A DNA stretch of 64,000 nucleotides from Actinokineospora sp. NBRC 105648 (GTDB lineage: Bacteria; Actinomycetota; Actinomycetes; Mycobacteriales; Pseudonocardiaceae), in assembly GCF_030269645.1 (NCBI RefSeq), contig NZ_BSTR01000006.1, positions 89,541 through 153,540 on the forward strand. The letters are read 5' to 3'. Every line of letters begins with the position of its first letter. Within the stretch, counting starts at the first letter, position 1. Made by a program: the position numbers and the translations under genes. The notes below the pieces were generated by a model, which did no database searches, was not told the DNA's origin, and saw nothing but the letters and a program-made list of their open reading frames with translations. Positions 3,481 to 32,765 of this stretch are shown here, piece by piece.

Positions 3481-4950
3481 CTAGCGCACCGTGATGGTGT
3501 ACTCAGTCGTGCCGGTCTTGCCCGCGCTGTCCGTCGCCGTGATGGTCACCTTGTAGGTGCCGCGCTGGTACGGACCCGCGACCGTCATCCGCGAGGTGCC
3601 GCCGGGCTTGATGGTCGGCGGCGAGAACGACGGCGCGGACAGGCCACCGGTGCCGGTGAGCTTGATGGTGCCGGTGCCGCCGGTGACGGTGACCGTCGGG
3701 TTGACGTAGCCGCCGGGGCCGACGGTGCCCGCGTTCGGGGACACGGACGGCTTGGGGCCGTCGGTGGGCGGGGTGCCGCCGCCGACGGTGAGGGTGTACT
3801 CGGCGGTCTTGGACCCGGAGGTCCCCTTGGCCGTCACGGTGACCTTGTAGGTGCCGTTCGGGGTGGTCGCCGAGGTCTGCAGGGTCAGCTTGGCCACGTC
3901 GCCGGAGTTGACCGAGGTGGGCTGGAAGGTGGCGGTCGCCCCGGTGGGCATACCGGACGCGCTCAGCTCCAGCTTCTCCGCGCCCTGGTCACCGGCCTTG
4001 GTGGTGACGCTGGTGGAGACGTACTTGCCCGCGTCCACCTTGCCGGTGGCCGGGGACAGGGCGACCGCGAACGTGCCGTCGGTCGGCGGGGTGCCGCCGC
4101 CGATCTCGGTCTTGGCCCAGTCGCCCATCGCGTTGGTCAGCCTGCCGAAGATGCTGTACCGGTCGCACTTGCTGGAGCCCCACGAGGAGACGCCGATGAT
4201 CACGCCGTCCACGATGAGCGGGCCACCGCTGTCGCCGGAGCAGTTCGCCGTGCGCCCGTCGTTGTAGCCCGAGCACACCATCAGGTCGCCGTTGACCTTG
4301 ATGTCGAACACGTTGCAGCCGGACGGGTCGTTGATCGGCAGCGTGGTCTTGCGCAGCTCGCCGGAGCCACCGCTGGACGAGGTCTTGCCGTAGCCGAGGG
4401 ACAGGGCGGACTTGCCCGGCGCGCTCAGCGCGGTGTCGCCCGACCCGGCCACCTTGGCCCACTGGGCCTCCGGCACCGGGAGGTCGTCGGCGGTGGTGAC
4501 CACCGCGACGTCCCAGCCGGTCTTCCAGCCGCCGTTGCCGGTGTAGTTGGGGTGGGTCTTGAACGAGGCCACCTTGGTGCGGAAGGTCTCGTCGCCCGGG
4601 GAGTTCAGGTCGTCGTCACCGTAGATGTAGCTCTTGTCGCCGACCGCGTCGATCATGCAGTGCGCGGCGGTGATGATCTTGCGCTTGCCGACCACGGAGG
4701 CGGTGCAGGACTGCCCCTGCGGGCCGCCGCCCCCGACGCGCATGCCCGCGATGATGAACGGGTTCTCCTTGACGGTGGTCTTGGTCCCGTTGACGATCTG
4801 CGCGCTCGCGTCCGGTCCGCGCAGGTCGGCGGTCGGGTTCGCGGCGATGCTGATCCGGTCGGGCTGGGCGGCACCGGCGCTGGTCGTGATCGCCACGGTC
4901 ACCGCGGCCAGCGCCAGGGTCACGGCGGCGGCGAGGTGTCGTTTCCTCAT
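3481..4950 (-). CDS. secreted trypsin-like serine protease (S1) with two C-terminal Ig-like domains
   Basis: A 489-residue exported protease with a signal peptide at residues 1-28. A short propeptide leads to mature IVNG at residue 52, the usual S1 activation site. The catalytic triad is visible: His97 in TAAHC, Asp147 in GWDVAVV and Ser241 in CSGDSGGPL; six or more Cys support disulfides. After about residue 283 come GGGTPPTDG linkers and two Ig-like repeats (about 293-388 and 398-489). The first is the same module found twice in the large S53 protease at 22174-25473. A GAACGATGAGG-type start context with AGGAG precedes ATG 4950. It lies 45 nt downstream of the subtilase gene on the same strand and may be co-transcribed with it. 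Likely role: extracellular protein breakdown. Confidence 0.9.
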   Translation of the reverse strand: MRKRHLAAAVTLALAAVTVAITTSAGAAQPDRISIAANPTADLRGPDASAQIVNGTKTTVKENPFIIAGMRVGGGGPQGQSCTASVVGKRKIITAAHCMIDAVGDKSYIYGDDDLNSPGDETFRTKVASFKTHPNYTGNGGWKTGWDVAVVTTADDLPVPEAQWAKVAGSGDTALSAPGKSALSLGYGKTSSSGGSGELRKTTLPINDPSGCNVFDIKVNGDLMVCSGYNDGRTANCSGDSGGPLIVDGVIIGVSSWGSSKCDRYSIFGRLTNAMGDWAKTEIGGGTPPTDGTFAVALSPATGKVDAGKYVSTSVTTKAGDQGAEKLELSASGMPTGATATFQPTSVNSGDVAKLTLQTSATTPNGTYKVTVTAKGTSGSKTAEYTLTVGGGTPPTDGPKPSVSPNAGTVGPGGYVNPTVTVTGGTGTIKLTGTGGLSAPSFSPPTIKPGGTSRMTVAGPYQRGTYKVTITATDSAGKTGTTEYTITVR

Positions 4951-6549: not shown

Positions 6550-6778
6550 CGATTCCTCCATCGTGCGTTCGAGCGGCCGTCGGCAGGGGGTTTGGGACAT
6601 CGGGCCGCTCGGGATTCACCCTTCGGCCTGGGCGATCGGCGAACAAGTGTGGTGCCGACCCGTATGGGTACGGGATCGGTCACGGGCGCGGTGCCGTGCG
6701 GAGCGGGGTTACGCCCGCCCGCTCGCGGACCTACCCTGTCGGGAATTCCCCGCGGGTGGGTCACCGACAGGAGCGAGC

Positions 6779-9598
6779 ATGGCTGAGGGTCGCGCGAGTC
6801 CCCTCCAGGTCCGGTCCGGCGCGTTGCCGATGATCGGCCGCGACGCGGAACTGGCCGCCCTGCTCGACGCGGTGCGGTGCCCGCCGTCGGCCGTCTTCGT
6901 CGAGGGCCAGGCCGGGGTTGGCAAGACCAGACTGGTCACCGAGTTCGCCGCGGCCGCCCGCGGCGGGCCCGCGCGTGTGGTCATGGGCTCGTGCCAGCCG
7001 TTGGCCGAGCCGTTCCCGTACGGGGTCCTGCTGGACTGCCTCAGCCAGTGCGCCGACCAGCTGCGCGACCCCGGCCCGGTGACCGGCGCGCTGCGCGACC
7101 ACCTGCCCGAACTCGCCGACCGGCTGCCGCCCGCGCCGGGCCCCCTCGGCGATCCCGACGCCGAACGGCACCGGCTCTTCCGTGCCGTGCGCGACCTGCT
7201 CGGCGCCCTGGGGCCGACCGTGCTCGTGCTCGAGGACCTGCACTGGGCGGACGAGGAGACCCGCCGGGTGCTGCGGTTCGTGCTGGGGAACCCGCCGCCT
7301 GGCCTGTCGGTCGTGGCGACCTACCGCCGCGAGGACCTGCCGACCGGGGCCCCGCTCGGCCGCGCCTTCCACGTCCCGCACGGGGTCGACCTGGTCCTGC
7401 GCCCCCTCGGCGCGGCGCAGGTGCGCGCCATGGTCGACGCCCTCGTGGGGGCCGAGGTGACCTCGGAGCGGTTCGCCGAGCTCCTCCTGCGCGAGACGGC
7501 GGGGATCCCGTTCGTCGTCGAGGAGACGGTTCGATCGCTGCGCGACCCGGTGCGCGACGTGCGCGCCGAAGACGACCTCGCCCGGCGGGTACTCGACGGG
7601 ATCGACGTGCCGGTCTTGGTGGCGGACACGATCAGGGACCGGATGGCGGCCCTGCCCGCCGCCGCCCGGTCCATCGCCGAGGCCGCCGCCGTGCTGGGCG
7701 TGCCGGAGACGATCGCCGTCCTGGGCGCCCTCGCGGGGGACGCGGGAACGGAGCACCTGACCGCACTGGTGGAGTCCGGTGTGCTCGTGGAGGAGGCGGC
7801 GAACAGGTACGGCTTCCGGCACAACATCGCCAGGCGCGCGGTGTGCGCTTCGCTGCCCGGTCCCCGCCGGTGGGAGCTGCACGAACGCGCCGTGGCGGTG
7901 CTGTCGGCGCTGGACAACCAACCCGTTGTCCGGCTTTCCGCGCACGCCAAGGCGGCGGGCATGACCGACGAGTGGCTGCGGTACAGCGAGCTCGCCGCCG
8001 AGGCCGCGGAGGAGGCCAAGGACGTGCCCGCCGCGGTCCACCTGCTCTCCGAGGTGCTGGTCGACCCGGAGATCAGCGCCGAGGACGCGAACCGGCTGGC
8101 CACCAAGCTGTGCGGCTACGCCCTGACCGGACTGCCCGGCGGCGAGGTGACCGCGCGGGTCGAGGCCCTGCTGTCGGACCCGCGGCTGACGCCGGACGTC
8201 CGGGGTGAGGTGCACCTGTGGTTCGGGCTGCTGCTGCAGCGCGAGGCAGGGGAGGTCGACCGCGGCGCCGAGGAGATCGCGCACGCCATCGACCTGCTCG
8301 GCGACCAGCCGGAACGCGCCGTGCGCGGGATGGCGGCCATGGCCGGGCCGTACCTGGGCAGCGCGTCCATCGCCGAGCAGCAGGTCTCCCTCGACCGGGT
8401 GGAGGGGATCCTCGACCACCTGCCCACCCAGGCCCTGCGCACCGCCATGCTCGCCACGACGCTCGGCGGGCGGCTCATCGTCGGCGACCCGAGCACCTGG
8501 GAGCGCATCGCCGAGCTGCCCTCGCCCGCGGAGGTGCGCGACCCGGACGACGTGCACAACCTCGCCCGGGCGTACTGCAACCTGGCGGACGCCTGCTCGT
8601 GGATCGGGCACTACGCGCGGGCGCGGGAGTTCCTGCGGGTCGGGACGTCCCTGGCCGAGCGGGTCGCCGCCTCCTACGTCGTCGGCACGGCCGAGGAGAC
8701 CGCGGTCCGGCTGGACTGGTTCAGCGGCCGGTGGTCGGGGCTGGAGCAGCGGATCGACCGCCTGGCCGGGACGTACGCGAACCTGCTGCTGACCAGCCAC
8801 CTGAACCTCACCCGCGGCTGGCTGGCGGCGGCCCGCGGCGACTGGGTCCGGGCCAAGGGGGCCTTCCGGGCGGCGGAGGGGTCCTACCCGGCGGGCATCT
8901 CGGCGGCAGGCGGGATGGCGGGCATGCTGCTCAGCCGGGGCGAGACCGCCGCGGCGGCCGAGCACGTGGAGCGCGGCGTGGCGACACTGCGGCGCAAGGG
9001 CGCGTGGGTGTGGTCGGGCGACATCCTGCCCCAGGCCGTCGACTGCTACCTGGCCGATGGCCGGGTCGACGCCGCCCGGCTGCTCATCGCCGAGACGGCC
9101 GCCGGTCTGGGCGGTGTCGACGCCCCACTGGCCCGAGCCGCGCTGACCGCCTGCCAGGCGAGACTGGCCGCGACGGCGGGCGACCAAGACGAGACCGACC
9201 AGCTCTACCGGGAGGCGATCGACCTGCACCGGGGCCTGGGCCTGACCTACCGGGCCACCCAGCTCGCCGAGCAGGCCGAGGGCGAGACCCCCGCCGACCT
9301 CGCGGTGTTCGACGCGCTGGCCCAGACCTACGACTCGCTGGGGGCCACTGTGGACGCCGCCCGCTGCCGCCACCGCATCCGCGGCACCGGCGCGGCCACC
9401 CCGTCACGCCGGGGCAGGCGCGGCTACGGCAGCGAGCTGTCCCCGCGCGAACAGGACGTCGCCCGCCTGTTGGCGGGCGGTCACACCAACCGCGAGATCG
9501 CCCAGGCGCTGTTCATCTCCCGCCGCACGGTCGAGGAGTACGTCGTCAAGGTCCGCCGGAAGCAGAACGCCCCCTCCCGGCACGACGTCCACATGTGA
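6779..9598 (+). CDS. LAL-type LuxR family regulator with AAA ATPase domain
   Basis: A 939-residue regulator starting at ATG 6779, with AGGAGCG 4-10 nt upstream. Residues 17-52 open the ATPase domain (IGRDAELAALL; Walker A GQAGVGKT at 43-50). Walker B VLVLEDLHWAD follows at about residue 145. The middle is a long helical, TPR-like region. The C-terminus is a LuxR helix-turn-helix (LSPREQDVARLLAGG, then TNREIAQALFISRRTVEEY). The ATP-binding plus LuxR layout at about 900-1000 residues is typical of MalT/LAL regulators, which often control carbohydrate use or secondary metabolism. It is divergent from the protease pair and convergent with the alpha-galactosidase; either could be a target (inference). 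Confidence 0.92.
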   Translation: MAEGRASPLQVRSGALPMIGRDAELAALLDAVRCPPSAVFVEGQAGVGKTRLVTEFAAAARGGPARVVMGSCQPLAEPFPYGVLLDCLSQCADQLRDPGPVTGALRDHLPELADRLPPAPGPLGDPDAERHRLFRAVRDLLGALGPTVLVLEDLHWADEETRRVLRFVLGNPPPGLSVVATYRREDLPTGAPLGRAFHVPHGVDLVLRPLGAAQVRAMVDALVGAEVTSERFAELLLRETAGIPFVVEETVRSLRDPVRDVRAEDDLARRVLDGIDVPVLVADTIRDRMAALPAAARSIAEAAAVLGVPETIAVLGALAGDAGTEHLTALVESGVLVEEAANRYGFRHNIARRAVCASLPGPRRWELHERAVAVLSALDNQPVVRLSAHAKAAGMTDEWLRYSELAAEAAEEAKDVPAAVHLLSEVLVDPEISAEDANRLATKLCGYALTGLPGGEVTARVEALLSDPRLTPDVRGEVHLWFGLLLQREAGEVDRGAEEIAHAIDLLGDQPERAVRGMAAMAGPYLGSASIAEQQVSLDRVEGILDHLPTQALRTAMLATTLGGRLIVGDPSTWERIAELPSPAEVRDPDDVHNLARAYCNLADACSWIGHYARAREFLRVGTSLAERVAASYVVGTAEETAVRLDWFSGRWSGLEQRIDRLAGTYANLLLTSHLNLTRGWLAAARGDWVRAKGAFRAAEGSYPAGISAAGGMAGMLLSRGETAAAAEHVERGVATLRRKGAWVWSGDILPQAVDCYLADGRVDAARLLIAETAAGLGGVDAPLARAALTACQARLAATAGDQDETDQLYREAIDLHRGLGLTYRATQLAEQAEGETPADLAVFDALAQTYDSLGATVDAARCRHRIRGTGAATPSRRGRRGYGSELSPREQDVARLLAGGHTNREIAQALFISRRTVEEYVVKVRRKQNAPSRHDVHM

Positions 9599-16313: not shown

Positions 16314-17753
16314 ATGTGGAACATTTCTTTACCATCGAGATTTTCGAGGTCCAAGAGATTGGCGGCCGCGGTCGCCGCCGGTATTGCCGTTTCCGTGGCG
16401 ACGACGATCGTGGTCGCGGGCAACGGGCAGGCCTCACCGCACTCCGCCGCCGCGCTCGCGCCCTGTACCGCCCCCGCCTGGGCCGAGGGCACCACCTACA
16501 ACGCCGGCACCGAGGTGACGTACCTGGGCAGGCTCTACAGCGCCAAGGTCACGCACACCGCGTGGCCGGGGGCTGGGTGGAACCCGGTCGCGGGGCGGTC
16601 GCTCTGGACGGACCTGCGCGCGTGTGACGGCAACCCGCCCACGACGACCACCACCCGGCCGACCACGACGACGACCACGACCACCACCCCGCCGACGACC
16701 ACCACGACCCGGCCGACGACGACCACGACTTCACCGACGACCACCACGACCACCACGCCCCCGACGACGACCACCACGACGACCGAGCCCGGTGGTGACA
16801 CCTGCGCGGTCAAGTCGAAGCCCGCCGGGAAGGTCCTCGTCGGCTACTGGGAGAACTGGGACGGCGCTGTCAACGGGGTGCACCCGCCGTTCGGGTGGAC
16901 GCCGGTGGCCAACCCGGCGATCCGGCAGCACGGCTACAACGTGCTCAACGCCGCGTTCCCGGTGATCCGCTCCGACGGCACCGCGCTGTGGGAAGACGGC
17001 ATGGACAGCAACGTCAAGGTCGCCACGCCCGCGGAGATGTGCCAGGCCAAGGCCGCGGGCCAGACGATCCTGATGTCCATCGGCGGCGCGGCGGCGGGTA
17101 TCGACCTGAACTCCGCCACGGTCGCCGACAAGTTCGTCGCCACCATCGTGCCGATCCTGAAGAAGTACAACTTCGACGGCATCGACATCGACATCGAGAC
17201 CGGTCTCTCCGGCGCGGGCAACATCAACCAGCTCTCCGCCTCGCAGACCAACCTCATCCGCATCATCGACGGCGTGCTGGCCCAGATGCCGTCGAACTTC
17301 GGGCTGACCATGGCCCCGGAGACCGCCTACGTCACCGGCGGCAGCGTCACCTACGGCTCGATCTGGGGCGCCTACCTGCCGATCGTCAAGAAGTACGCGG
17401 ACAACGGCAAGCTCTGGTGGCTGAACATGCAGTACTACAACGGCAGCATGTACGGCTGCAGCGGCGACTCCTACCAGGCGGCGACCGTGCAGGGCTTCGT
17501 CAAGCAGACCGAGTGCCTCAACCAGGGCCTGGTCATCCAGGGCACCACGATCCGGGTGCCCTACGACAAGCAGGTCCCCGGGCTGCCCGCGCAGCCGGGC
17601 GCCGGTGGCGGCTACATGTCACCCGCGCTGGTCTCCCAGGCGTGGAACAGCTTCGGGGGCAACCTCAAGGGGCTGATGACCTGGTCGCTCAACTGGGACG
17701 GTTCGAAGAGTTGGAGCTTCGGCGACAACGTCAAGTCGTTGCAGGGCCGGTAA
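16314..17753 (+). CDS. secreted GH18 chitinase with CBM5/12 and Thr/Pro linker
   Basis: A 479-residue exported chitinase. An extended signal peptide spans residues 1-45. A chitin-binding CBM5/12 domain follows (about 51-104: APAWAEGTTYNAGTEVTYLG, then AGWNPVAG and LW). A Thr/Pro linker runs from 109 to 158, then the GH18 barrel from about 172 to 479. The GH18 signature DGIDIDIE at 288-295 gives Glu295 as acid/base, with SIGG at 255-258. This is a ChiD/ChiC-like bacterial subfamily 18 enzyme that cleaves chitin beta-1,4 bonds. No good Shine-Dalgarno sequence precedes ATG 16314; the upstream region is AT-rich. A strong terminator follows. Confidence 0.95.
   Translation: MWNISLPSRFSRSKRLAAAVAAGIAVSVATTIVVAGNGQASPHSAAALAPCTAPAWAEGTTYNAGTEVTYLGRLYSAKVTHTAWPGAGWNPVAGRSLWTDLRACDGNPPTTTTTRPTTTTTTTTTPPTTTTTRPTTTTTSPTTTTTTTPPTTTTTTTEPGGDTCAVKSKPAGKVLVGYWENWDGAVNGVHPPFGWTPVANPAIRQHGYNVLNAAFPVIRSDGTALWEDGMDSNVKVATPAEMCQAKAAGQTILMSIGGAAAGIDLNSATVADKFVATIVPILKKYNFDGIDIDIETGLSGAGNINQLSASQTNLIRIIDGVLAQMPSNFGLTMAPETAYVTGGSVTYGSIWGAYLPIVKKYADNGKLWWLNMQYYNGSMYGCSGDSYQAATVQGFVKQTECLNQGLVIQGTTIRVPYDKQVPGLPAQPGAGGGYMSPALVSQAWNSFGGNLKGLMTWSLNWDGSKSWSFGDNVKSLQGR
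16638..16787 (+). repeat. ACG/ACC triplet repeat coding for the chitinase linker
   Basis: Fifty codons, nearly all Thr with interspersed Pro and Arg, encoded by alternating ACG/ACC triplets. It is an in-frame, likely length-variable, low-complexity linker between the chitin-binding and catalytic domains. It leaves matching open frames on the other strand that are not genes. Confidence 0.9.
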
Positions 17754-21200: not shown

Positions 21201-22127
21201 ATGTCGGGTGGTGTGGACCTGTCGACGCGCCTGCCCGCCGACCGGGAACTGCGCAGGCTGCTGCGGCACGGGACGTTCGCCGAGGTGCTCGACCACGCGC
21301 TGAACGTGCGCCGGTTGAGCCTGGAGCGGGTCCAGCACCACCTCGCCGAGCAGGGGGTGCGGGTGAGTCGGGCGGCGCTGAGCTACTGGCGGCACGGGCG
21401 CAGCAGACCGGAGCGGGCCGAGTCGCTGCGGGCGGTGCAGGCGCTGGAGAAGGTGCTCGACCTGCCGCAGGCCTCGCTGGTGTCGCTGCTGGGCCCGCAG
21501 CGCCCCCGGGTCCGGGCCGAGCGGGTGCCCGCGGCGGTGGACCGGCGGCGGATGTGGCCCGCGCACGGCCCGCTGCTGGCCGCCCTCGACGCGCCGCCGG
21601 ACGGGCAGCTGCGGCGGCTGTCGGTGCACGAGCACGTGCTGGTCGCCGACCGGATGCTCGCCCGGGTGCGCACCAGGCTGGTGCTGGAGGCCACCGAGGA
21701 CCACGTCGACCGCTGCCTGGTGTACCTGTGGAACGAGGACTCGGTGCCGCGGCTGGCCGAGACGCGGTACTGCCGGGCCGGCCGGACCCGGCGCAACGAC
21801 GACGCGGGCGCCGTGGTCACCGAGCTGATGCTTGACCAGCGGCTCGACGCGGGGGAGCGGACGGTCGTGGAGTACACCTGGCTGTTCGCGGCGGGCGACC
21901 CGCTGACCTTCTACCACCGCAGGCTCACCCGGCCGTTGCGCGAGCTGGTGTTGCAGGTGCAGTGCACCGGCGACGTGCCCGCGGGCTGCGTGCCCTACCG
22001 GCAGGCGACCGCCGACAGCCCGAAGCGGTTCGGGAGTCCACTGTGGATCGGCGCGTCCGGGGCCGCGCACCTGGTGCTCGACGACGTGGCCCCCAGCGTG
22101 GTCGGGCTCTGCTGGGAATGGGACTGA
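21201..22127 (+). CDS. helix-turn-helix (XRE-like) actinobacterial regulator
   Basis: A 308-residue protein from ATG 21201, with GGAGGGCGAG just upstream. The N-terminus contains an XRE-type helix-turn-helix (about residues 35-90: LSLERVQHHLAEQGVRVSRA, SYWRHGRSRPERAESLRAVQALEKVLDL). The C-terminal 200 residues form a beta-rich domain of unknown function, seen in many actinobacterial XRE-like proteins. It may sense a ligand, but nothing in the sequence identifies one. Its stop codon lies within the left arm of a long hairpin shared with the convergent S53 protease gene. Confidence 0.75.
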   Translation: MSGGVDLSTRLPADRELRRLLRHGTFAEVLDHALNVRRLSLERVQHHLAEQGVRVSRAALSYWRHGRSRPERAESLRAVQALEKVLDLPQASLVSLLGPQRPRVRAERVPAAVDRRRMWPAHGPLLAALDAPPDGQLRRLSVHEHVLVADRMLARVRTRLVLEATEDHVDRCLVYLWNEDSVPRLAETRYCRAGRTRRNDDAGAVVTELMLDQRLDAGERTVVEYTWLFAAGDPLTFYHRRLTRPLRELVLQVQCTGDVPAGCVPYRQATADSPKRFGSPLWIGASGAAHLVLDDVAPSVVGLCWEWD

Positions 22128-22173: not shown

Positions 22174-25100
22174 CTAGTACACGAACCAGCTGAACTGGAC
22201 CCGGCCCGTGGCGCCCGCCGAGTCGGTGGCGGTCACCGTGATGGTGTAGGTCCGCGCGGTGCCGGTCGGCGTACCGCTGATCACGCCGGTACTGGCGTTG
22301 ATCGACAGACCCGGCGGCAGGCCGGTCGCCGACCACCGGTACGAACCGGTGCCGCCACTGGCCTGCAGCGGCAGGTTCACCCGGGTGCCGTGCTGGGTGA
22401 ACTGGAAGCCGGGGTCCCGCACGGTCAGCTTGCCCGGCGTGCCCGACTGGACGGTCAGCGTGAACGTCGTGTCGTGCGCCGCCGTCGCGCCCTTACCGGT
22501 GATCTTCACCGGGTAGCTGCCCGCCGGGGTGGACGCGCTGGTGCTGACGGTGATCTTCGACGAGCCGCCCGCGTCGACCGAGGTCGGGTCGAACGACGCC
22601 GTGGCGCCGCTGGGCAGACCGCTCGCGCTCAGCGCGATGGCACCGCTGGGCGGCGGCGTGCTGCCGGGCAGGTGCGCCTTGATCTCGTCGGCGTAGGTGG
22701 TGACCCGGGCGTACACGCCGTAGGTGTTGCACTGGGTCGCGTCCCACGAGAAGACCCCGATCACCTGGTTGTTGACCAGGAACGGGCTGCCGCTGTCGCC
22801 GGTGCAGACGCCCTGGTGGCCGTCGGCGTAGCCCACGCACAGCATCGAGCCGTCGTTCTTCCAGTTGGAGGCCAGAACCGGCTGGTTGGCGCAAGACGTG
22901 TCGGTCGCGACCGGCAGTTGCACCGTGCGCAGGACGTCGGAGTACGAGTTGGCGCCGGTCTGGCCCCAGCCGATCCCGGTGCCCATCGTCCCGGCCTTGT
23001 TCACGGCCGGGTCGGTCGCGATCGTCGGGTAGGTGATGCCCGAGGGCACCGGGACGTCCCGGTCGAGGGTGAAGACCGCGACGTCGTGGCCGCTCTCCCA
23101 GCCGGTGTAGTCCGGGTCGACCCAGGTGTCCTTGATCTCGGCCCGGAAGCCGCTGTCGTTGAGGTTGGTCGCCCCGTAGATGAACCACTTGTTCCCGGAC
23201 TTCTCCTTGAGGCAGTGCGCCGCGCCGAGCACCGTGTGCGGGCCCATCAGCGCCATGCTGCACGACTGCTGACCCGGGAATACGCTGCCCTCGCGCCGCA
23301 TCGAGATCATGAACGGGTACTGGTCCACTGTGGTCGGGTTGCCACCGACCACGCCGGGGCTCGCGCCACCGCGCGCTGTGGTCGCCGCCGTCTGCACGGT
23401 GGCGGTCGTGGACTGGCCCGCGGTCACTGTCGCCGAACCCGGCGAGACGCTGATCGAGAAGTCGCCCGGCTGGCCGTTCCCGTTGACGGTCAACGAGACA
23501 GCGGCGGTGTGCGTGGCGTCGGTCGCCTTGCCGGTGACCGTGACTGTCGCGGTGCCCGGGCTCGCCGACGACGACGCGGCCAGGGTGAGTGTCGCGGAGT
23601 TGCCCGCGGTCACCGAGGTCGGGGTGAAGGTCGCCGTCACGCCCGTCGGCAGGCCGCTCGCGGACAGCGCCACGCTCTGCGCGCTGCCCTTGACGACCGC
23701 GGTGCTGATGGTCGTGGTGACCGACTTGCCCGGGTCGACGCTGACCGAGGCCGGGCTCGCCGAGAGGGAGAAGTCGTTGCTCGCGGGCGGGGTGGCGCCG
23801 TTGATCAGCGGGTCGGCGAGGTTGTCGCCCTGCGGGGAACCCCAGCCGGTGCACAGGTCGTAGCCGGTGCCCGCGTTGTAGGTGCCGTTGCCGCCGGTGG
23901 TCACGTCGTGGAAGGTGCTGGCGTACTGCGAGGACTTGGCGATGGCGTACAGCGTCGGGTTGATCCCGCCGAGGTTCGCCTTGCCGCCCGCCTTGGCCTT
24001 CTGGTTGACCATCGCGATGTAGCCCGCCCAGAGCGGGGCGGAGAGGCTGGTGCCGCCGACGTCCTGCCAGCCGCCGTTGACGTACACCGACAGCGCCCCG
24101 GCGCCGTAGTCGGCGTCGAGCGCGACGTCGGGCACCGAGCGGAACTGGTTGGTGCCGGTCTGCCAGTCGGGGCGGGCGTAGATCGAGGAGTAGCCGCCGC
24201 CGGAGCGGGTGTTGCCGGAGCCGCCCTGGTTCCAGCACGACTCGGACTGGTAGGTGCCCGCGCTGTCGGAGGTCTTGAGCTGGGTGCCGCCGACGCCGGT
24301 GAACAGCGGGTCGCTCGGCGGGAAGTCGGCCTGGATCGTGGAGTTGTCACCGTTGTAGCCGCAGCCGGTGGCGCCCCAGTCGCCGGAGGCGGAGAGCATC
24401 GTGACGCCCTGCGCGGCGAGCTGGGTGTAGGAGTCGTGCGAGGCGGCGATCGGCGCCGATTCGCACTTCTCGCCGTTGAGCCACGAGCCGGACAGGATGG
24501 TGATCGCGTTGTCGCTGGCGATCTTGGCCATCTCGTGCACCCAGGCGTCGTCGCTGTTGGGCGCCTCGTAGACGACCTGGGCCGCCTTCGGCGCGGTGGC
24601 CGCGACCGCCTCGATGTCGAGGGTCACCTCCAGCTGGTCGCTGCCCGGCGTCGGCTTGCCACCGTCCACCGCGACCACCCTGGGGGTGACGGTCGGCTGG
24701 CTGAAGTTCTTGGTCCAGGCGTCGATGTCGGACTGCTTGAACCCGTCGAACTCGATCAGGCCGACGGTCTGGCCCGAGCCGTCGTAGGACGAGGACAGGT
24801 TCTTCATGCTGTAGGCGGTGCGGAACTGGGCGGGCGTGTAGCCACCGGCAGGTCCGCCGGGACCGGCCGGACCGCCCGCCCGGTGCGCGAACGGCAGGTC
24901 GTTCAGACCGGCCACGGTGCGCACGGTGCCCGCGAGGTCGGCGGGCACCGACGGGGCGCTGTCGTTGGCGAAGAAGTGCGCGCCGTCGGAGCCGGTGTAG
25001 CTGCTGATCGAGGTGGCGAACGCGCCGCGCACCTGCTCGGCGCTGCCCGCCGCGCTGATGACCTGCCGGTTCCCGGAGACCTCCGAGACGCTCAACCCGT

Positions 25101-25473
25101 TGTCCCGCAGGTACTTCACCACTGTGTCCACATCAGACTGTCGTGGCGCGAACAGATCGTTGTACTGCGCTGAGGTCAGGAAGTGGCGGTAGGTGGGGGA
25201 GCCCGGGTCGTTGACCGCGGTGACGAACCGGTTGAGACCGGCCTCGTCGTGCGGCCGCAGCGCGACCGCCAGGTCGACCCGGTGGTCACCGGGCAGTGGA
25301 CCGTCCTTGCGCGCACCGGCGGGCACCGGGGCGCTCTGCCCGGCGAGGGCCACCCGGGGCGCGGCCGGGACCGTCGGCGCCGCGGCCGCGGCGCCGGTCA
25401 CCGCCATCGCGGCGATGGTGGCGAAGCCGGCCGCCGCGGCGACCACCTTCACTGGGAGCAGGGATCGTGACAT
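22174..25473 (-). CDS. secreted S53 sedolisin protease with a trypsin (S1) domain nested in an Ig-like domain
   Basis: A 1099-residue protein. ATG 25473 is chosen because GGAGGA lies 6 nt upstream. Domains in order: signal peptide (1-32), pro-kumamolisin activation domain (about 45-190), S53 catalytic domain (about 210-558) with Glu282, Asp286, Asp365 (SASGDWG) and Ser476 (GGTSLSAP). An intact Ig-like module follows (567-663). A second copy of that module is split: its first half is 670-700 (FSISVSPGSATVTAGQ) and its second half resumes at about 943 (IALSASGLPSGATASFDPTS). Between the halves is a complete trypsin domain with IgA-like start VVGG (708), His753 (AAHC), Asp797 and Ser894 (GDSGSP). 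A cadherin-like/putative Ig domain (about 1013-1099) closes the protein. Two protease active sites in one chain. Confidence 0.92.
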   Translation of the reverse strand: MSRSLLPVKVVAAAAGFATIAAMAVTGAAAAAPTVPAAPRVALAGQSAPVPAGARKDGPLPGDHRVDLAVALRPHDEAGLNRFVTAVNDPGSPTYRHFLTSAQYNDLFAPRQSDVDTVVKYLRDNGLSVSEVSGNRQVISAAGSAEQVRGAFATSISSYTGSDGAHFFANDSAPSVPADLAGTVRTVAGLNDLPFAHRAGGPAGPGGPAGGYTPAQFRTAYSMKNLSSSYDGSGQTVGLIEFDGFKQSDIDAWTKNFSQPTVTPRVVAVDGGKPTPGSDQLEVTLDIEAVAATAPKAAQVVYEAPNSDDAWVHEMAKIASDNAITILSGSWLNGEKCESAPIAASHDSYTQLAAQGVTMLSASGDWGATGCGYNGDNSTIQADFPPSDPLFTGVGGTQLKTSDSAGTYQSESCWNQGGSGNTRSGGGYSSIYARPDWQTGTNQFRSVPDVALDADYGAGALSVYVNGGWQDVGGTSLSAPLWAGYIAMVNQKAKAGGKANLGGINPTLYAIAKSSQYASTFHDVTTGGNGTYNAGTGYDLCTGWGSPQGDNLADPLINGATPPASNDFSLSASPASVSVDPGKSVTTTISTAVVKGSAQSVALSASGLPTGVTATFTPTSVTAGNSATLTLAASSSASPGTATVTVTGKATDATHTAAVSLTVNGNGQPGDFSISVSPGSATVTAGQSTTATVQTAATTARGGASPGVVGGNPTTVDQYPFMISMRREGSVFPGQQSCSMALMGPHTVLGAAHCLKEKSGNKWFIYGATNLNDSGFRAEIKDTWVDPDYTGWESGHDVAVFTLDRDVPVPSGITYPTIATDPAVNKAGTMGTGIGWGQTGANSYSDVLRTVQLPVATDTSCANQPVLASNWKNDGSMLCVGYADGHQGVCTGDSGSPFLVNNQVIGVFSWDATQCNTYGVYARVTTYADEIKAHLPGSTPPPSGAIALSASGLPSGATASFDPTSVDAGGSSKITVSTSASTPAGSYPVKITGKGATAAHDTTFTLTVQSGTPGKLTVRDPGFQFTQHGTRVNLPLQASGGTGSYRWSATGLPPGLSINASTGVISGTPTGTARTYTITVTATDSAGATGRVQFSWFVY

Positions 25474-27799: not shown

Positions 27800-28476
27800 T
27801 GCTCACCAACGCCAACGACCCCGACAGACTCCTGCTCGAGGTCGACGACATCGAGGACGACCTCCTCCCGTCCGCCCTCGCGCCCTACCGGGCGCAGCTG
27901 CGCACCATCCTGGACTGGGCCCGGCAGTACCTCGCCCGGCCGCACGAGAGCCTGGGCAGGCGGGGGAGCGTGTGCCCGTTCGTCCAGTCCTCTTTGGACC
28001 GGGGCCGGTTCTACCTGGCCGTCTACCCCGGCCACCCGGCCGATCCCCGGGCGGTCGCCGAGGCGGTGCTGCCCTACCGGGACTGGTTCCTCGAGCTGGC
28101 GCCGAACCCGTCCGGCACGGCCCAGCTCACCACCATCCTGGTGCTCTTCCCCGACCTGCCCGCCCAGGACGTCGACCGGATGATCGACGGCTCGCAGGAG
28201 GCCCTCAAGACCGACTACGTGGACCGGGGCCTGATGATCGGCGAGTTCCACGACGGCCCGCCGGACAAGGCCGGGCTGTGGAACCCGGACTTCCGGCCGC
28301 TGCGCAGCCCGGTGCCGCTGCTGGCGATCCGGCACATGGTGCCGACCGACTTCGCCTTCCTCGCCGGCAACCGCGACCACGCGTCGGCCTACCTGCGCCG
28401 GTTCGCCGGTGAGCTGCCCGCGTTCGTCCGCGAGGCGATGGTGCGCGCCCTCGTCCGCGAACAGGTGGCCCTGTGA
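27796..28476 (+). CDS. conserved protein of unknown function (DUF6875-like) in NRPS operon
   Basis: A 226-residue soluble protein. ATG 27796 overlaps the preceding stop by 4 nt (ATGA), and its own stop overlaps the NRPS start (GTGA), so it is translationally coupled at both ends. Conserved-looking parts are LRTILDWARQYLARPHESLGR, GSVCPFVQSSLDRG, LVLFPDLPAQDVDRMID and NRDHASAYLRRFAGELP. The pattern CPFVxxSL and the IRHMVxTDxxFL segment match what I recall of DUF6875 proteins, which occur in natural-product operons. No signal peptide or membrane helix is visible. The reaction is unknown; position argues for a role in making or releasing the peptide. Confidence 0.6.
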   Translation: MMLTNANDPDRLLLEVDDIEDDLLPSALAPYRAQLRTILDWARQYLARPHESLGRRGSVCPFVQSSLDRGRFYLAVYPGHPADPRAVAEAVLPYRDWFLELAPNPSGTAQLTTILVLFPDLPAQDVDRMIDGSQEALKTDYVDRGLMIGEFHDGPPDKAGLWNPDFRPLRSPVPLLAIRHMVPTDFAFLAGNRDHASAYLRRFAGELPAFVREAMVRALVREQVAL

Positions 28477-31400
28477 CCCCGCCCGGCGCCGATCCCGGTT
28501 CCGGTGTGGTCGCCCCGCAGTCCTTCGCCCAGCGGCGGATGTGGTTCCTCGACGCGCTCTACCCGGACTCGGCGCTCTACAACGTCCCGGTCTCGGTCCG
28601 GGTGCGCGGCCCGCTCGACCTGACCGCGGTGCGCGGCGCGGTCGAGGTGCTGGTGGCCAGGCACGACGCGTTGCGCACGGTGTTCGCCGACCACGACGGC
28701 GAACCGGTGCAGATCGTGCGACCCGCCGGCGCGGCGGGCGTGACCCCGGTGGACGTGGTGGCGGTGGCCGACCCGGCCGACATCGAGCGGCTGACGCTCG
28801 CCGAGGCCCGCCGCCCGTTCGACCTCTCGGCGGGCCCGCTGCTGCGCGTCCTGGTGCTGCGGCTCGCCGCCGACGACCACCACCTCATGATCACGCTGCA
28901 CCACATCGTCACCGACGGCTGGTCCCAGGCCGTGCTGTTCGGCGAGCTCGGCGCCGCCTACGCCGCGCTGGTGCGCGGCGAGGTGCCCGCCCTGCCGCCG
29001 CTTCCGGTGACCTACGCCGAGTTCACCCGCTGGCAGCGTCAGGAGGCGGAGAGCCCGCTCGGTGAGATGTCCCTGGAGTTCTGGGCGGACGCGCTGCGCG
29101 GCGCGCCCGAGCTGCTCGCCCTGCCGACCGACCGGCCGCGGCCCGCCACCCAGTCGTTCGAGGGGGCCGTGCACCGGCGGGTGCTGCCGTCGGCGGCGAT
29201 CAAGGCCGCGCTGCCCGGGCTGGGCGGCACGATGTACATGGTGCTGCTCGCGGCGTACCAGGCGCTGCTGGCGCGCTACAGCGGTCAGGACGACATCGTG
29301 GTGGGCACCGCGGTCACCGGACGGACGCGACCGGAGGACGAGCCGCTGGTCGGCCTGTTCGTCAACACGATCCCGTTGCGCACCTCCCTGGCGGGTGACC
29401 CGACCTTCCGCGAGCTGGTGGCGAGGGTGCGGGACGTGGCGCTCGACGGGATGGGCTACGCGGACGTGCCGCTGGAGCGGATCGTCGCCGCGGTCACGCC
29501 GTCGCGGGGCCAAGGGCACGCCCCGGTGTTCCAGGCGGGGTTCACCCTGACCAACACCCCACCCGCCCGGCTTGAGCTGGCCGGGACGGTGGTGTCGGAG
29601 CCCGAGTTCGTCCACTCCGGCACCGCGAAGATCGACCTGACGGTGGGCGCCCTCGAGGTCGGCGACGAGATCATCGTGGACTTCGAGTACGACGTGGCGC
29701 TGTTCGACCCCTCGACCATCGAGCTGTTCGCCGACCGGTTCGCCCGGTTCACCGCCGCCGTGGTCGCCGCGCCGGACACCCGCGTGCGGGACGTCGACCT
29801 GACCACCGACGCGGAACGCGCCCTGATCAGTGGCGGGGACTTCTCCCCGGCGCCGCTGGTGCCGGGCCTGATCGCCGCGCGCGCCGCGGTCGCGCCGGAC
29901 GCCGTCGCGGTGGTCGACGGGGATCGGGTGCTGACCTACGGCGAGTTGGCCCGCCGGGCCAACGCCCTGGCGTGGCGGCTGCGCGAACTCGGTGTCGGCC
30001 CGGAAACCATTGTGGCGCTTGGGTTCCCCGCGAGTGTCGAGGCCATCGTGGCCATCACCGGGATCCACGCCGCGGGCGGCGCGTACCTGCCGGTCGACCC
30101 CGCGCACCCGGCCGACCGGCTGGCCGCGCTGCTGGCCGACGCGGCCCCCGAGGTGTTGGTGACCAACCGGCCCGAGGCGTTCCCTGGGTTCACCGGGCCG
30201 GTGCTCGCGGTGGGCACCGACGAGCGGGAGAAGCCGCCGCCGACCGGGCTCGACCGCGACCACCTCGCGTACGTGATCTACACCTCCGGCTCCACCGGCG
30301 CGCCCAAGGGCGTCGCGGTGCAGCACGGCACGCTGGCCAACCTCGCCGCCGCCTTCGCCGCCGCGCACCCGTTCGGCCCCGACGACCGGGTGCTGATGAT
30401 CCCGCCGCTGACCTTCGACGCCTCCGCGGGCGACGTGTTCCCCGCGCTGATCAGCGGGTCGGCGCTGGTGCTCTGCCACGACCCCGCGGCGCTGTCCGGC
30501 GCCGACGTGCTGCGCCTGTGCGCGGACAAGGGCATCACGATGGTCGACACCGCGGCGCCGTTGTGGCGCAAGTGGGTGGACGACCTCGCCGCGACCGGTG
30601 TTCCCGGCCCGTCGCCGCTGCGCACGATGATGGTCGGTGGCGACGCCGTCGATGTCGCCGCTGTGCGCGAGTGGACGGCGCTGACCGGTGCGACCCTCGT
30701 CAACCACTACGGCCCCACCGAGGGGACCGTGTGCGCCACCCTGCACACCGTGGTCGGCGACGAACCCGGCACCCGGCTGCCGATCGGCAGGCCGCTGCCG
30801 CACGTGCGCGCGTACGTCCTCGACGACAACCTGCGGCCGGTCCTGACCGGGTTGCCCGGCGAGCTGTGCCTCGGCGGGGACACCCTCGCCCGCGGCTACC
30901 TGGGGCGCGGCGACCTCACCGCCGCGCGGTTCGTCCCGGACCCGTTCGGCCCGCCGGGATCGCGGCTCTACCGCACCGGCGACCTGGCCAGGTGGCGGTC
31001 CGACGGGGTGCTGGAGTTCCTCGGCCGGGTCGACCGGCAGGTCAAGATCCGCGGCCACCGGGTCGAGCCCGCCGAGATCGAGGCGGCCTGCCGCGCGCAC
31101 CCCGAGGTCGCCGACGCGCTCGTCGTCGCGCGCCCCGACGAGCTGGGCGACCAGCGCCTGGTCGCCTACCTCGTCCCGGACCACCCGGCCGACCTGCGCG
31201 CGGTGCTGCGCGCGGCGCTGCCGGAGTACCTGGTGCCCGCCGAGTTCGTCGGCCTGGCCCGGTTCCCGGTGACCGGGAGCGGGAAGCTCGACGTCGCCGC
31301 GCTGCCGGACCCGGTGCGGCGGCCCAGGTCCGCGGTGCCGCCGCGCTCGGCGACCGCCCGCGTGCTGGCCGCCGAGTGGGCCGCGCTGCTCGGGGTGGAC

Positions 31401-32765
31401 GCCGTCGGCGAGGACGACGACTTCTTCGCGCTGGGCGGGCACTCGCTGCTGGCCGCGCGCATGATCACCCGGGTCCGACTGGCCCTCGGCGTCGACGTCC
31501 CGCTGCGCGCGGTGTTCGACGCTTCCTCACTCGGTGAGCTGGCCGCGATCATCGACCGCCAAGCTCCCGCCGCCCACGTCGACCTGCGCGCGGAAACCTT
31601 GCTACCTAACGACATCCGACCTGTCACCGCACCGGACGCGGTCGACCGGGCCTGCTCGCCTGCCGCGATCCTGCTAACCGGGGCAACCGGCTTCCTCGGC
31701 GGGTACCTGCTCGCCGATGCCTTGGAGCACACGACCGCGCGGGTGTATTGCTTGGCGCGCGCGGACTCGGCGGCCGACGCGTTGGCCAGGATCGAGCGCG
31801 GGCTGCGCGGGTACGGGCTCTGGACGCCGTCGGCGGCCGAGCGGATCGTGCCGGTGCCCGGCGACCTGGGCGCGCCCCGGCTCGGCCTCGACGAGGACCG
31901 GTTCGACGAGCTGTCCCGCTCGGTCGACCTGATCGTCCACTGCGGCGGGACTGTCCACTTCGCACAATCCTATGCGGAGCTCAAGGCCGCCAACGTGTCC
32001 GGCACGATCGAGGTGCTCCGGCTGGCCACCCGGCACGGCGGCGTCCCGGTGCACTTCGTCTCGACGCTCGGGGTGTACCCGCTGCACCTGCCCGGGACGG
32101 TCACCGAGGACCAGGCGCCGCAGCAGCCCGAGCAGCTCGACCGGGGCTACGAGCAGACGAAGTGGGTCGCCGACGTGCTGGTCCGCGCCGCCCGGGAAGC
32201 CGGTCTGCCGGTCAGCGTCCACCGCCCGGCGCGAGTCACGGGCGACAGCCGCACCGGTGCTAGCTCCGGCGCCGACCTCTTCGCGGGCGAGCTACGCGCG
32301 ATCACCGCGCTCGGTGCGACCCCCGACCTCGACGTCGCCGAGGACATGGCCCCCGTCGACCACGTGGCCGCGGCGATCGGCTGGCTGACCCGCCAGCCGT
32401 CGGCCTACGGCCAGGACTTCCACTTCTACAACGGCCGCACGATCAGCTCGTCCGCGATAGCCGAGACACTGCGCGACTACGGCTACCCGGTACGCGAGGT
32501 CCCGTACGCGCAGTGGTACGAGGACTTGCTCACGGCAGCGGCTGCGTCGGGCGACCCGGCACTGTCGGCGATAGCGGCGGCCTCCGGCCCGGTCCCGGAC
32601 GTCCGCGTCCGGGAGTTCGACTGCACCGCGACCGAGACCCGCCTCGCCACGGGCGGCATCGTCTGCCCACCCGCCGACCCGACGCTACTGCGCGGATACC
32701 TGGACCACTTCGTACGGACCGGAACCCTCCCCGCCCCCACCGCGGCGGTGTCGCGTGCACACTGA
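28473..32765 (+). CDS. non-ribosomal peptide synthetase, C-A-T-R (reductive release)
   Basis: A 1430-residue NRPS from GTG 28473 (GTGA overlap). Domains: condensation (about 14-455; HHIVTDG at 143-149), adenylation (about 465-955; A3 core [11 protein letters not shown] at 603-613, A8 near [11 protein letters not shown]), thiolation (about 965-1035; Ser991 in GGHSLL) and thioester reductase (about 1065-1430; GATGFLG at 1070-1076; catalytic Tyr1226 and Lys1230 in YEQTK). Aligning by eye to GrsA gives a pocket D-A-G-D-M-G-H-V-C-K, which I cannot assign to a substrate. The reductase would release the peptide as an aldehyde or alcohol, so this is probably the last module, acting after the MT-C-A-T protein. 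Confidence 0.93.

Follow-up and report, generated by a model that had tools for sequence, protein, structure and literature searches.

Can a complete protease sit inside a single Ig-like domain of another secreted protease, and if so, what might the nesting do? One gene in the window, the stretch of 64,000 nucleotides of Actinokineospora sp. NBRC 105648 DNA analysed here, raises this question. An earlier note on the sequence had described it as an S53 protease with a trypsin domain lodged in a loop of its second Ig-like module.

Two proteases and a split Ig-like domain in one chain

The gene (22174..25473, minus strand, as for all features of its product below) was defined by its open reading frame and by Pfam matches. 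The frame runs from 25473 to 22174 with no internal stop and encodes 1099 residues, in the order signal peptide, pro-kumamolisin prodomain, S53 domain, intact Ig-like domain, split Ig-like domain with S1 inside it, and He_PIG domain. As read from these domains, the product is a secreted chain with two different proteases, S53 and S1.

A probable signal peptide (residues 1 to ~32; 25378..25473) was recognised by eye from its basic start, hydrophobic run and Ala-rich end. The pro-kumamolisin activation domain follows (residues 53-192; 24898..25317; Pfam PF09286, Pro-kuma_activ, E = 5.3e-34), and then the S53 catalytic domain (~210-556; 23806..24846), which was placed by conserved motifs and by phmmer matches to kumamolisin structures (E ~1e-41). 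The prodomain, the Glu-Asp-Ser residues (E282, D286, S476) and the oxyanion D365 expected of an S53 enzyme are present, in line with the Ser-Glu-Asp residues that had been proposed, and the four residues are kept in 10 of 10 S53 members. The S1 domain (708-934; 22672..23352) matches Pfam Trypsin over residues 708-929 (E = 4.7e-37) and has the GDSG motif and the His57-Asp102-Ser195 triad, with His753, Asp797 and Ser894 at the positions originally assigned to them, as the alignments confirm. Nested S1 domains also conserve the cysteines that form their three usual disulfides, the C220 column being gap-shifted in the alignment with a cysteine nearby. The chain ends in a putative Ig domain, He_PIG (1021-1096; 22186..22413; Pfam PF05345).

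No Pfam model scored above its cut-off for either Ig-like stretch. The first Ig-like domain (566-669; 23467..23778), earlier placed at 567-663, is intact according to its high-pLDDT AlphaFold strands and its profile match. As a separate observation, the Ig-like domain of 23467-23778 (DFSLSASPASVSV...LSASGLP) has many copies in secreted proteins of the source genome and its relatives. For the second domain we used two hmmsearch profiles, the first built on intact first Ig copies (profile 1) and the second on Ig domains taken from proteins with an unnested S1 (profile 2). In the window protein, profile 1 matched an N-half (strands A, A' and B; 670-698; 23380..23466) over positions 2-30 (E = 1.3e-7) and a C-half (strands C-G; 946-1011; 22441..22638) over positions 35-100 (E = 2.7e-23), with no significant match within S1. 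Between the halves lie a variable linker that ends in P-G (699-707; 23353..23379, from alignments), the S1 domain, and a Pro/Ser-rich linker leading back to the Ig (935-945; 22639..22671, from the sequence). The second copy had been described as cut at about residue 700 and resuming at about 943, with S1 exactly between the halves. Here it stops at about 698 and resumes at 946, and the one minor correction is that S1 proper starts at Val708, after the linker.

This complementary split was found in 16 of 16 homologues with both profiles, the N-half covering positions ~1-30 and the C-half ~30-35 to the end (profile 1 E-values of 1e-5 to 3e-8 and 1e-14 to 1e-26, respectively); three members have long linkers, into which the N-half match extends by some residues. 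The split site is the B-C loop, whose counterpart in the intact copy is the short loop VVKGSAQS. In one member, L036, there is a single Ig copy with no intact one before it, yet it is split in the same manner.

We also computed two AlphaFold models, each from seven sequences, the second from a construct without the first Ig domain. Both halves were modeled with high confidence (pLDDT ~85-90 for the N-half and mostly >80 for the C-half) in the strand order A-A'-B, S1, C-D-E-F-G, matching the intact copy; this covers the strand-order part of the structure prediction that had been proposed as a check. The 29-residue N-half reached a pLDDT of ~90 even without the first Ig domain. The S1 part was weak (pLDDT ~35-78 by block), and the pTM of the two models was 0.41 and 0.51. 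Foldseek returned VesB as the best solved match for both models, with S. erythraea trypsin next in line for the second model. Together, profile coverage and models support the reading that the two halves are one Ig-like domain, interrupted at its B-C loop by a whole S1 domain; the halves would then be in direct contact.

An assembly-error fusion was considered and rejected because 15 other sequences carry the same arrangement, which is real and conserved and no accident of one genome. The uninterrupted module pair, suggested as a comparison, did not turn up: among 200 genomes of the family, we found no S53-Ig-Ig protein without the insertion, and the relatives inspected were S53 proteins with He_PIG or without Ig.

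Interchange of the front protease and of S1

The nested module is known in 16 proteins from several actinomycete families, 10 of them S53 chains and 6 subtilisin (S8) chains. Besides the window protein there are six full-length homologues (Actinokineospora inagensis, Streptomyces seoulensis, Hamadaea tsunoensis, Kribbella monticola, Streptomyces montanisoli and Labedaea rhizosphaerae), to which whole-genome searches added three S53 chains (L015, L032, L036) and, with a Pfam check, the six S8 chains (L016, L017, L018, L034, L035, L037). The unit of one Ig domain, an Ig half, S1, the other Ig half and He_PIG is common to both kinds of front protease. Since the nested S1 recurs in nine further S53 chains and in six S8 chains, the front protease is, at the level of sequence, interchangeable; the subtilisin chains go beyond the earlier note, which describes the module with S53 only. 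The arrangement is uncommon. Within the family, at least 8 of the 150 sampled genomes have it; in the class and phylum samples only the source genome is among the matches listed. These counts are lower bounds, since few candidates were scored per genome in these large samples. The Streptomyces, Kribbella and Hamadaea cases place it outside the source family. No plasmid record searched matched 80% of the query at a single place. Two further observations concern related genes: the L032 gene (genome G119) has a frame change in the C-half of its split Ig (L073, ~6700-6800), either a natural frameshift or a sequencing error, and L022 (747-3683, minus strand) encodes another two-protease chain, ordered S8, P domain, S1 and Ig, in which S1 is unnested.

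The S1 tree contains two nested types. Type one is found only with S53. Type two, which occurs with S8 and in the Labedaea S53 protein, clusters with S1 enzymes that are unnested (support 100/99). A single clade of all nested S1 domains was rejected (p-AU 0.011), although this test loses force through a long outgroup (L006) and a modest sample, as was a single clade of S53-linked S1 domains (p = 8e-5). In Labedaea, the first Ig domain, the two Ig halves and He_PIG lie nearer the S53 group (C-half, 74% vs. 62% mean), whereas its S1 is nearer the S8 group (70% vs. 43%). The simplest reading of these sequences is that S1 was swapped inside the same Ig loop in Labedaea while the Ig halves were retained. 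On the same comparisons, the Ig loop shows itself to be a reusable acceptor site for S1, compatible with either one or two original insertions.

The S1 domain had been called trypsin-like, which holds for its fold and triad. Its specificity is another matter: residue 189 is Gly in 14 of the 16 nested S1 domains (including that of the window) and either Ala or Ser in the remaining two, and position 216 has Asp, Met or Leu. Because Asp189 is absent, trypsin specificity is unlikely, and we would guess at a preference for small or aliphatic P1 residues. The GDSGSP motif, singled out earlier as unusual, is indeed confined to 8 of the 10 S53-linked members, with GDSGGP in L014, L036 and all S8-linked ones, and is thus a feature of a clade and not unique to this protein. 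Elsewhere in the window, positions 3481-4950 (minus strand) encode a secreted S1-Ig protease paralogue with 37% identity to the nested S1.

Convergent with the protease gene, and 46 bases from it, is a gene for a 308-residue protein (21201..22127, plus strand) with an HTH-like N-terminal part, recognised by eye; no Pfam or NCBIfam family was found for it. Of the 15 other loci, 14 have a homologue adjoining the nested protease, the exception being A. inagensis (15/16 overall). Each of the four genomes checked has 6-14 copies of the gene, and 9 of 30 inspected copies have a serine protease within 1.5 kb, nested ones counted; some genes for simple S53 and S1-Ig proteases also have a homologue beside them. 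The product is probably a regulator tied to secreted proteases. Near the L036 protease, at a distance of a few kb, a second HTH-like copy adjoins a further S1-like gene (L074, 10446-12248). The window further encodes an NRPS module with condensation, adenylation, carrier and terminal reductase (NAD_binding_4) domains (28473-32765, plus strand), and a GH18 chitinase-like protein with CBM5/12 (16314-17753, plus strand).

Proposed activation of the nested S1 domain

Chymotrypsin-fold S1 enzymes require a free residue 16 for activity. Both zymogen residues, Val16 (V708) and Asp194 (D893), are invariant in the 16 nested S1 domains, and the catalytic sites of the front protease and of S1 are complete in 16/16. 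At the start of S1, after the variable-length linker, 14 of the 16 proteins have the motif P-[GAS]-V-[VI]-[GN]-G (the exceptions are L018 and L032), which in the window protein makes Gly707-Val708 the putative activation site.

Arguing from sequence and by analogy, we consider it an even call that the chain is a two-protease zymogen, in which S1 would be activated by a cut from the front protease and held by a nicked Ig tether. The front protease (S53 or S8) would mature first, shedding its own prodomain. S1 would then be activated by a cut at Gly707-Val708, its new N-terminus pairing with Asp893. The P1 residue is small (Gly, Ala, Ser or Asn) and usually follows Pro, so no trypsin-type cut would be required, and we infer that the likeliest activator would be the front protease, acting within its own chain or on a neighbouring molecule. 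Since the cut falls inside the Ig B-C loop, activation would not separate the enzymes: the nicked Ig (A-A'-B plus C-G) would hold them together noncovalently, and the tethered pair would jointly digest outside protein. In two-chain S1 proteases elsewhere, the partners are joined by an inter-chain disulfide.

The Ig split seen by two profiles in every member, the high pLDDT of both halves in the strand order of the intact copy, the complete catalytic sites, the invariant Val16 and Asp194, the motif at the start of S1 and the same nested module behind S8 all speak for this proposal. That the split is conserved with either kind of front protease fits it as well. A parallel is S. griseus trypsin, whose propeptide also ends without a basic residue (APNP) and which does not activate itself (PMC4794721). 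Against the proposal, P-[GAS] also precedes some unnested S1 domains (RPS in L022, SPS in L004), so the motif is no mark of nesting, and the cut could come from some other extracellular protease. Kumamolisin-As favours Arg at P1 (PMC11294657), which makes cutting after Gly or Ala by the window S53 an assumption. The modeled S1 has low confidence, and the pTM values give little hold on the inter-domain geometry.

Modular shuffling might instead have produced the nesting. An Ig loop whose ends lie close together would tolerate the insert while the halves still act as one spacer, whichever extracellular protease was at hand would cut S1, and each enzyme would simply digest protein alongside the other at a different pH. 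We regard this as a real possibility, if a somewhat doubtful one. It would account for two S1 types in the same loop, with the rejected single nested clade and the Labedaea exchange that kept the halves, and L022 demonstrates that an S8-P-S1-Ig chain can exist without a split; it sits less well with a split kept in all 16 proteins across two front proteases, and with L036, whose only Ig copy is the split one. Alternatively, cuts in the linkers on either side of S1, of which the C-terminal one is Pro-rich, would free S1 and let the Ig halves re-close, which we think improbable. Both linkers are Gly/Pro/Ser-rich and variable, and there is a precedent in Polyserase-1, which frees its protease units by processing (PMC1435904), but alignments of the 16 members showed no conserved cleavage motif after S1, and its C-terminus is joined to the Ig by about ten residues in every one. 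That the halves are two unrelated β-segments flanking S1 is highly improbable: unnested S1-Ig pairs are common in the same genomes and the C-half could be a shortened Ig, but the profile matches are complementary and non-overlapping in 16/16, the N-half keeps its confidence without the first Ig domain, and L036 has no other copy of this Ig domain.

If the tether of the two-protease zymogen holds, it would be a natural cascade design in which activation keeps the partners joined, and it would offer engineers an acceptor site ready for use. The putative cut also provides a defined point for tests of S1 activation in actinomycete trypsins, whose activation has been described as unresolved (PMC4794721). 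We extend the proposal only tentatively, and think it rather unlikely to hold in full, to a general device: an S1 zymogen in an Ig loop would be cut, in cis or between like molecules, by a protease of another clan (S53 or S8), the nicked Ig would keep the pair joined, and the loop would serve as an exchangeable S1 socket.

Comparison with known proteases

We found no literature on chains combining S53 and S1 or on proteases nested in Ig domains, and the available text of a 2008 survey of prokaryotic serine proteases reports none, its five named families omitting S53 (PMC2605481). There is thus no earlier report that we could find of a protease nested in an Ig-like domain, or of a nested module common to two clans. 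Kumamolisin and kumamolisin-As (S53; PDB 1gt9, 1sio, 1t1e) share the prodomain, S53 body, Glu-Asp-Ser residues and oxyanion Asp; kumamolisin-As, however, is described as a catalytic domain that lacks an accessory binding domain (PMC11294657), whereas the window chain adds Ig, nested S1 and He_PIG. The trypsins of S. erythraea (4m7g, 5dk1) and S. griseus share the actinomycete S1 fold and triad, and that of S. griseus also lacks a basic propeptide end, but both are stand-alone enzymes, and S. erythraea trypsin has Asp189 and Gly216 in place of the Gly/Ala/Ser189 and Asp/Met/Leu216 of the nested domains. In Streptomyces, UmbA shows that a trypsin fold can be non-catalytic, a point against the two-protease zymogen, although the triad of UmbA is incomplete (PMC11062931). 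Actinomycete S1-Ig proteins and L022 have related S1 and Ig domains, with S1 beside the Ig and not inside it.

Animal Polyserases 1-3 (PMC1435904) also carry several serine protease units per chain, but theirs are all S1, in tandem and none nested; here two clans are combined, one S53 or S8 with one nested S1, and not tandem S1 units. Finally, VesB of Vibrio cholerae (PDB 4lk4) resembles the nested module in pairing an S1 zymogen with an Ig-fold domain. In VesB, however, S1 precedes a whole Ig, with no nesting and no second protease, and activation is at Arg-Ile and apparently by VesB itself (PMC6219818).
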